DNA of 64,000 bases from Parasphaerochaeta coccoides DSM 17374 (GTDB lineage: Bacteria; Spirochaetota; Spirochaetia; Sphaerochaetales; Sphaerochaetaceae), in NCBI RefSeq assembly GCF_000208385.1, contig NC_015436.1, forward strand, positions 1,674,001-1,738,000, read 5' to 3'. The translations under genes were made by a program, and so were the position numbers. The notes under the pieces were generated by a model that was given only the letters and a program-made list of their open reading frames with translations, had not been told where the DNA came from and searched no databases. Shown here piece by piece: positions 33,850 through 36,015 of this stretch (position 1 is its first letter; every line of letters begins with the position of its first letter).

Positions 33850-36015
33850 ATGAGAGAGAGAGAGAGAGAGAGAGAGAGAGAGAGAGAGAGAGAGAGAGAG
33901 AGAGAGAGAGAGAGAGAGAGAGAGACTAAACTAAGCGTCATGGTCTTCCTGACCATCCTGATGCTTCTTATCACCTTCATTTCATGCGACAACAAGCTGA
34001 ATGTTTCACATACCAATGCAGTGCGCTTCTCCACGGAGATAGGCCGCAAGGCCATGGCAAATTCCGAATGGCAAGCTGATGATGACGTTGGCATCTACAT
34101 GGTGGATCATGACACTGGCACGGCAGCTACTGCCGCCCCGGAACGTGCAAACAAACTCTATACGGCTGACACAGCCTTCCAGACTTCCGGCTTCACTCCT
34201 GCTACCGTTGCCGATACCTTGAAGTGGGATGATATTAGTGCGAATCCTGCATCATTCTTTGACTTCATCGCCTATTATCCTTACGTGTCTTCCATCGCTG
34301 ATACCACGGCTCTATCCATAAATGTCTATCCGGGTTCCGGGGAACAGGACACCGGAAAGGCTGACTTCCTGTGGGGACGCACCGACAATGTACAGAACAA
34401 TACCTCGACGGTGCATCTGAAGCTTGACCATATGCTCTCCCGTCTGATTGTCAACATCTCTCCCAGCACGACCGTTGATGCTACGGCTATCAATGATGCC
34501 ACCGGCGGCTTTACCGTCACGGTCAAGGGCTTGGGTTCTGAAACTACGATAAATCTGAATGACGGAACCTTGGATGCTGCCAGTGTCATTGAGTCTATTG
34601 TCATGAAGGACATTTCCGACACCCTTACTCAATCTGAAAGAAATGAGGGCAAGCGCAGGTTCGAGGCTGTGCTGATACCTGTGGACAACACTGATGCCCT
34701 GGCTAACGTGAGCCTGGAGTTTATCCTGGCCGGGGGTGCTGGCGCTGGTACATACACATGGGCAGCGACTTCCGTAGCGACCTCTGACCAGGGCAAGATT
34801 CACTTTGACAAAGGCAAGCAGCATGTCTACAACATGACGCTCAATACGTCTGATGATGAAGTCGCCCTCGCCGCTATTGAGATTGAGATACAGGACTGGG
34901 ACACCGGGGACGGCATAAACGGGGCTGCTACGTTCAAACCATACCGAGCCGTCTCCGCCGGAGCTTTCCACACGATGATCCTGAAGACAGATGGCACGCT
35001 CTGGGCGACTGGACGGAATGATCATGGCCAACTGGGTGTCGGCGCTGCGACCACCTATACAACAAGCACGCCCGTGCCGGTCACGTCCATGGGTTCTGAT
35101 GTCGCGGCTGTCTACGCCGGAGATGAGCACACGATGATTTTGAAGAAGGACGGCACGCTCTGGGCGACTGGACTGAACGGTTCTGGTCAACTGGGTATCG
35201 GCACTACGAGCGACACAAACGTACCCGTGCAGGTCAAGGATAATACTGATATTTCCGGGTTCATGACTGATGTCGCGACTGTTTCCGTCGGATGGAACCA
35301 TACGATAATCCTGAAGAAGAACGGCACGCTCTGGGCGACTGGATCCAACTATAATGGCCAACTGGGTATCGGTAATTATGAAGACAAAAACACACCCGTG
35401 CAGGTCACGACTGATGTCAAGGCTGTCTCCGCTAAAACCCACTATACGATGATTCTGAAGAAGGACGGCACGCTCTGGGCGACTGGAGACAACTATGATG
35501 GCCAACTGGGTATCGGTAATAATATCAGCAAAAATACACCCATGCAGGTCAGCTCTGATGTCACGGCTGTCTTCACCGGAGGTTATCACATGTTGTTCCT
35601 GAAGACGGACGGCACGCTCTGGGCGACTGGACGGAATGGTTCTGGTCAACTGGGTATCGGTAATAATAACAGCATAAATACGCCCGATCAGGTCTGGGAT
35701 TCTGCCGATGGTTCCCTGAAAATGACTGCTGTCGCGGCCGTCTCCGCCGGTTTTCACACGATGATTCTGAAGAAGGACGGCACGCTCTGGGCGACTGGAC
35801 AGAATGATTATGGCCAACTGGGTGTTGGTGACAATGGCAACAAAAACAAGCCCGATCAGGTCATGACTGATGTCGCGGCTGTCTTCGCCGGAAGGCTCCA
35901 TACGATGATCCTGAAGAAGGACGGTACGCTCTGGGCGACTGGATACAACTCATTTGGCCAACTGGGTATCGGCAATAATAGCTCGAAAAATGAACCCACA
36001 CAGGTTGTCTTCTGA
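33850..36015 (+). CDS. Phase-variable surface lipoprotein: fimbrillin-like domain plus seven RCC1 repeats
   Basis: A 721-residue protein. The ATG runs straight into 37 GA units encoding alternating Arg-Glu, then TKLSVMVFLTILMLLITFISC, a lipoprotein signal ending at the lipobox Cys. Residues about 45-350 resemble the fimbrillin/Mfa-like family of Bacteroidetes (WQADDDVGIYM, FIAYYPYV, LDHMLSRLIVNI). The rest is seven RCC1-type propeller repeats built on HTMILKKDGTLWATG...GQLGIG. Loss or gain of one GA unit breaks the frame, giving ON/OFF switching. AAGGGG lies five bases before the ATG. A paralogue is at 51571. The role is probably surface adhesion; the ligand is unknown. Confidence 0.85.
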   Translation: MRERERERERERERERERERERERETKLSVMVFLTILMLLITFISCDNKLNVSHTNAVRFSTEIGRKAMANSEWQADDDVGIYMVDHDTGTAATAAPERANKLYTADTAFQTSGFTPATVADTLKWDDISANPASFFDFIAYYPYVSSIADTTALSINVYPGSGEQDTGKADFLWGRTDNVQNNTSTVHLKLDHMLSRLIVNISPSTTVDATAINDATGGFTVTVKGLGSETTINLNDGTLDAASVIESIVMKDISDTLTQSERNEGKRRFEAVLIPVDNTDALANVSLEFILAGGAGAGTYTWAATSVATSDQGKIHFDKGKQHVYNMTLNTSDDEVALAAIEIEIQDWDTGDGINGAATFKPYRAVSAGAFHTMILKTDGTLWATGRNDHGQLGVGAATTYTTSTPVPVTSMGSDVAAVYAGDEHTMILKKDGTLWATGLNGSGQLGIGTTSDTNVPVQVKDNTDISGFMTDVATVSVGWNHTIILKKNGTLWATGSNYNGQLGIGNYEDKNTPVQVTTDVKAVSAKTHYTMILKKDGTLWATGDNYDGQLGIGNNISKNTPMQVSSDVTAVFTGGYHMLFLKTDGTLWATGRNGSGQLGIGNNNSINTPDQVWDSADGSLKMTAVAAVSAGFHTMILKKDGTLWATGQNDYGQLGVGDNGNKNKPDQVMTDVAAVFAGRLHTMILKKDGTLWATGYNSFGQLGIGNNSSKNEPTQVVF
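33852..33925 (+). repeat. (GA)37 dinucleotide tract in coding sequence
   Basis: 74 uninterrupted bases of GA immediately after the AT of the start codon. In the present length the downstream lipoprotein is in frame. Confidence 0.95.

Follow-up and report, generated by a model that had tools for sequence, protein, structure and literature searches.

The GA tract at the start of a predicted lipoprotein gene of Parasphaerochaeta (Sphaerochaeta) coccoides, which we take to be a termite-gut spirochaete, is very probably a slipped-strand switch that turns translation ON and OFF. It is one of 24 such tracts, each placed at the start codon of a gene from a dispersed family that encodes predicted surface lipoproteins. 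The window analysed is a stretch of 64,000 nucleotides, positions 1674001–1738000 of the single-contig genome of 2,227,296 bases. The gene occupies 33850–36015 of the window (721 codons) and, like all of its features given below, lies on the plus strand. Its ATG (33850–33852) is fused to the tract, reads ATG AGA GAG onward, and stands where the paralogues without a tract have their start. The tract, (GA)37 at 33852–33925, is perfect (100% matches, score 148) and encodes in-frame Arg-Glu repeats; the frame from the ATG stays open through it as far as the stop at 36013–36015. A perfect tract directly behind the ATG and in frame with the lipoprotein is what the original prediction had described, and its statement that each one-unit change breaks the frame also holds, since a GA unit is two bases and not a multiple of three. 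The tract ATG is preceded by a likely ribosome-binding site, AAAGGGG (33838–33844, −6.9 kcal/mol). Further upstream lies a likely −10 element, TATACT (33779–33784), assigned by the −10 consensus; TATACT or TACACT was seen by eye at the same place in the alignment of the 24 copies. Directly behind the tract is a leader of what we call class 1 (33926–33939), in which both remaining frames run into a TAA; the two stops end 10 and 5 nt 5′ of an internal ATG. This ATG opens a segment with a hydrophobic core and a lipobox-like cysteine (MVFLTILMLLITFISC, 33940–33987), the lipobox being recognised by eye.

The original prediction had called the arrangement unique. This part does not stand, as there are 24 such tracts in the genome and a second copy inside the window itself: (GA)22.5 at 51573–51617, in frame within another predicted lipoprotein gene with the same domains (51571–53799, 742 codons, start ATG 51571), both on the plus strand. 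A scan of the whole genome for T(GA)6G finds 24 places, and a wider pattern allowing C, G or T before (GA)5G finds the identical 24 places and no others. All 24 of the T-preceded GA tracts of at least 6.5 units are start-codon tracts of the lipoprotein family. The pattern (GA)10 gives 216 forward and 75 reverse matches, exactly the number yielded by the 24 tract lengths; no GA run of 10 or more units is therefore present elsewhere in the genome. In each of the 24 an ATG runs directly into 10–48 GA units (median 18), the lengths all coming from one assembled genome and the spread being one between paralogues. The open frames behind the tracts run to 695–981 codons, counted from the tract end; in the tract at 1904078 one C interrupts the GA run. 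Because the same structure recurs at 24 genomic places, each of them the start of a paralogue, the (GA)37 structure is not due to chance.

Only six of the 24 tract genes, both window copies included, are in frame with the lipoprotein, and the phases of 6/9/9 fit an even spread (chi-square p 0.69). The 18 out-of-frame (OFF) genes nevertheless keep open frames of 693–966 codons, 13,566 codons in sum, and 17 of them end with the family C-terminal motif, which was read by eye and is absent in 513270. Within the 200 nt 5′ of the tract, the starts that these 18 genes have in the lipoprotein frame all score 0, apart from one GTG at −2.7, which is a background value. Haemophilus-style switches use alternative starts in several frames; that design was rejected here, as no lipoprotein-frame start in the stretch just described beats −2.7. 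Over up to 330 N-terminal codons, and with member 1515833 excluded, the 153 pairs of OFF genes have a median dN/dS of 0.41, the 15 pairs of ON genes one of 0.34 and the 105 pairs of tract-less members one of 0.39. Since long open frames are kept and dN/dS is about 0.4 as in the tract-less members, the OFF genes are not decaying; they are under purifying selection. The idea that the tracts are mutational noise in redundant duplicates that no longer matter has thus very little chance of being right. It can draw on the 18 of 24 copies that are out of frame in the sequenced genome and on the size and redundancy of the family, but the preserved OFF frames, their dN/dS and the absence of GA runs of 10 or more units outside the tract genes all speak against it. 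The contingency-tract reading of the original prediction gains instead from the 24 paralogues with 10–48 units, the evenly spread phases and the long open frames behind the 18 out-of-phase tracts. The original prediction also raised a tuning of export by tract length; a reading in which the length of an Arg-Glu n-region sets export and frameshifting is secondary appears very improbable as well. The tract does lie in frame before the hydrophobic core, and in-frame steps of three GA units would each add one Arg-Glu pair. Such pairs, however, add zero net charge, so that a strong effect of length on export would not be expected, and the tracts are not kept in frame; with the phases evenly spread, translation from the tract ATG would leave most copies without any exported product.

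The alternative that deserves more attention, though we consider it unlikely, is that translation really begins at the internal ATG (33940 and its counterparts), either directly or by re-initiation after a leader stop, in which case the tract would at most modulate expression and OFF would not be off. The leaders offer something to this explanation. In the 12 class 1 copies each of the other frames reaches a TAA shortly before the internal ATG, at distances of 10 and 5 nt, and in the 12 class 2 copies the stops range from 20 nt before the internal ATG to a 14-nt overlap with it. Class 2 internal ATGs would also give a good, canonical-looking signal peptide (MNKSSRP...), so internal-ATG use may occur in those copies, and the purifying selection on OFF genes would be equally expected if the internal ATG were used. 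The class 1 form (MVFLTIL...), on the other hand, has no positive n-region. Ribosome-site energies favour the tract ATGs, with a median of −5.9 and −5.1 or better in 23 of 24, over the internal ATGs, whose median of about −2.9 is that of the background (1646 ATGs inside genes, median −3.0, 5th percentile −6.7); the score is a moderate discriminator only, given that 5% of background ATGs reach −6.7. Two class 2 copies are exceptions with a fair ribosome site at the internal ATG, namely 192940 (−5.4) and 1453568 (−4.4, against only −0.3 at its tract ATG). For the gene at 33850, the internal ATG at 33940, which the original prediction had singled out as the competing start, scores −2.7, a background value, versus −6.9 for the tract ATG. 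The tract-less paralogues point the same way. In 16 of 16 the best-supported start (−4.0 to −11.2 kcal/mol) lies at the tract-ATG site and reads Met-Arg-Glu (5), Val-Arg-Lys with GTG (9) or Met-Asn-Glu (2); an ATG at the internal site is found in only one of the 16, and a better-supported start lies upstream there.

Since these paralogues start at the tract-ATG site, the tract most likely grew by expansion of the AGA-GAG codons behind the ancestral start. That the leader stops evolved for switching was considered and rejected: by eye, the corresponding codons are already stops in the tract-less members 44456 (both) and 57520 (one).

As a switch in translation, the tract would work as follows. 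Polymerase slippage would add or remove GA units; in two of the three phases the ribosome would meet a stop just behind the tract and no lipoprotein would be made, while the third phase would yield the lipoprotein with an (Arg-Glu)n extension of its n-region. In-frame tracts of various lengths would be tolerated because this extension is charge-neutral and stays within the n-region. The 24 loci would slip independently, many combinations could be displayed across a population, and individual cells would carry different ones among 24 coats. Recombination among the copies, of which the shuffling of modules is a sign, could in addition produce new mosaic proteins. Frequent slippage, which the original prediction took as a necessity for a tract of 37 units, is plausible. 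MutS and MutL domains are both encoded in the genome and should act to reduce slippage, whose rates may therefore be moderate; for the same reason, loss of mismatch repair was dismissed as the cause of the long tracts.

The tract-gene copies are mosaics in which promoter, leader and coding modules have been shuffled. When promoters were sorted by short motifs into types A, B and C and combined with the leader classes, the counts were A1 11, A2 4, B2 6, C1 1 and C2 2, the only C1 copy being the gene at 33850. The existence of A1, A2, C1 and C2 together implies exchange between promoter and leader, at or beside the tract. Pairwise distances in the promoter do not track those in the N-terminal segment (Mantel r 0.09, p 0.20); among six segment pairs a correlation is seen only for the last RCC1 part with the 3′ flank (r 0.32, p 0.016). 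This near-free assortment of modules lets one ask whether a microsatellite can serve as a recombination joint.

Upstream of all 24 tract genes lies a palindrome, TAACCCGAAAGTAT ... ATACCTTTGGGTAAT, with small variations. In the gene at 33850 its left arm (ATAACCCGAAAGTAT, 33695–33709) was found as a pattern match on the opposite strand and is aligned in all 24 tract genes; its right arm is at 33742–33756, an arm offset of 47 bp, both coordinates being given on the plus strand. The palindrome of the second copy spans 51409–51470, also on the plus strand. The offset is 47 bp in 13 copies and 37 bp in 11, a difference of one helical turn. With at most one mismatch, the arm pattern has 71 matches genome-wide versus 2 for a reversed control. 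The palindrome is a likely binding site for a putative common regulator of the tract genes, and likely the operator of a lipoprotein regulon. Palindrome arms were also observed upstream of distant relatives; at 2171117–2171230 four repeats stand about 33 bp apart.

A search of the genome with the N-terminal domain returned 48 matches. Forty of them reach at least 55% identity and are counted as members, 24 with the tract and 16 without a long tract. The others are three fragments (1249798, 1515653 and 1178055), all on the plus strand and also head-on to replication, and five distant relatives at 26–43% identity. The 40 members lie at 32 separate places from 44456 to 2209771, when copies within about 5 kb are joined. 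The dnaA gene is at 497 on the plus strand. GC skew was sampled in 6-kb stretches: all 17 between 100 and 700 kb have a positive value, whereas those past 725 kb are mostly negative, the positive ones being at 930, 1075, 1300 and 1800 kb; the replication terminus is placed near 712 kb on account of this change. All 40 members are then head-on to replication, being on the minus strand at 44–524 kb or on the plus strand at 924–2210 kb, compared with a base rate of 68 of 189 long ORFs (36%) obtained with a crude ORF caller in the sampled stretches and the window. The five distant relatives are all co-directional with replication. Because the 16 tract-less members share the orientation, the bias belongs to the family and not to the tract. 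A review calls a mutagenic effect of head-on orientation contested (PMC10710837), and the head-on family of 40 would provide natural material for testing the contested idea of selection on gene orientation for its effect on mutability. A broader picture can be offered only tentatively, and we would put it at somewhat below an even chance: that a gut spirochaete which is not among the known phase-variable pathogens has one of the largest single-family repeat-switch systems, with 24 independent start-codon switches in a mosaic coat, the tract acting as a crossover for promoter swaps, and a 40-gene family held head-on, perhaps through fork–transcription conflict or single-strand insertion driving its spread and diversification.

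The product of the gene at 33850 contains a fimbrillin-like Mfa_like_1 domain (PF13149) at residues 70–350 (118.3 bits against a cut-off of 27, E 7.5e-34) and, from about residue 366, RCC1 repeats (PF00415) in 7 stretches (226.3 bits), both by Pfam. In a structure model, for which 38 of the 120 listed proteins from the protein search were aligned, the RCC1 part is modelled confidently as a propeller (residues about 341–690, mostly pLDDT >85), with UVR8 as the best match, followed by HERC2, RPGR and RCC1. The model has low confidence for the N-terminal part, and the indication of a fimbrillin function therefore comes from Pfam. A simple reading of the signal segment finds a hydrophobic core followed by [F/L][I/V]SC in all 24 tract genes, and the products are predicted to be surface-located lipoproteins.

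Among the material examined, the association of the tract with lipoprotein starts is nearly confined to this genome. Among 119 genomes from the taxonomic family, one has the tract pattern and one has the N-terminal protein (E up to 1e-10), so a trait of the taxonomic family can be discarded. In a sample of the phylum the tract pattern is present in 7 of 392 genomes; 24 of the 33 matches are in this genome and the next has 4. In public genomes at least 120 stretches carry ATG(AG)12 or longer. Thirteen of the 80 listed have an open frame of at least 120 codons behind the tract, and two of the 13 match a loose lipobox pattern, one (L161) without a ribosome site and the other (L164) reading like a membrane acyltransferase. 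A convincing lipoprotein gene led by a ribosome site was absent among the 80, some of which are cut by the end of a contig or stretch. A search of genome contigs for related loci did not find a relative, and the protein search found RCC1 matches elsewhere; among the 120 listed of 1805 proteins, those from other genomes cover no more than 52% of the query. An independent single case of the same architecture was noted in the same class (L140; tract at 1500, reverse strand), where ATG(GA)10.5 lies in frame in the signal-peptide n-region of an unrelated lipoprotein-like gene with a GAGGAG ribosome site upstream. A number of long AT(GA)n tracts in spirochaete and Bacteroidales MAGs (among L153–L232) are followed, by eye, by a short recurring K/N-x-R-A-K-like sequence without a long ORF; the recurring sequence looks like an intergenic repeat element.

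Several known systems resemble the present one in part. In Helicobacter pylori, oipA-type genes carry a CT dinucleotide switch in the signal-peptide codons that works by slipped-strand mispairing (PMC10564699). The likeness lies in a dinucleotide within the signal-peptide coding region, where a unit change shifts the frame and turns a surface protein ON or OFF. In contrast to that outer-membrane protein gene with its CT units, the tract here is GA, is fused to the ATG, encodes Arg-Glu, and occurs in 24 paralogous predicted lipoprotein genes with up to 48 units. The vlhA genes of Mycoplasma gallisepticum likewise form a large surface-lipoprotein family in which each gene has its own repeat tract linked to expression. 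Their GAA repeats affect the promoter from a position about 40 nt ahead of the transcription start, with 12 units classically the active number, although others are expressed too (PMC6258824). The present tract belongs to the coding sequence, and its effect would come through the reading frame. A promoter repeat system of the vlhA type was accordingly set aside, the tract being at the start codon behind a likely ribosome site. A type III modification gene of Mycoplasma mycoides subsp. capri contains 12 coding AG units with early termination at a TAA, and so shares with our genes a coding AG dinucleotide tract and an early stop; it is a single methyltransferase gene and not a surface family (PMC3498834). 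The tpr genes of Treponema pallidum are, similarly, a spirochaete multigene family with length-dependent switching, through polyG in promoters and 3 or 4 CT units at 706–711 in tprA. They differ in encoding predicted outer-membrane proteins that belong to another family and in having short or homopolymeric repeats, the one in tprA lying away from the start codon (PMC3656149). A limited literature search found no published report of the present lipoprotein family, nor any literature on Sphaerochaeta phase variation or on phase-variable lipoproteins of termite spirochaetes. Repeat-driven switching is best known in pathogens and in pathogen-like commensals under immune attack. If the switch reading is true, a family of 24 switches in a probable insect-gut spirochaete would suggest that combinatorial coat switching is favoured outside pathogens as well, with phages, protists or competitors as examples of what could favour it.

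The window also holds an ORF of 2090 codons (19555–25827) with ADP-ribosyltransferase (ART-PolyVal), PBECR1 nuclease and LPD3 domains, likely a polyvalent protein of a phage or mobile element. A tRNA-Leu is located near it, at 18768–18851. Nested tandem repeats with periods of 30 bp and 146 bp occur at 58694–58968, in a stretch for which the ORF list has no entry of at least 150 codons.
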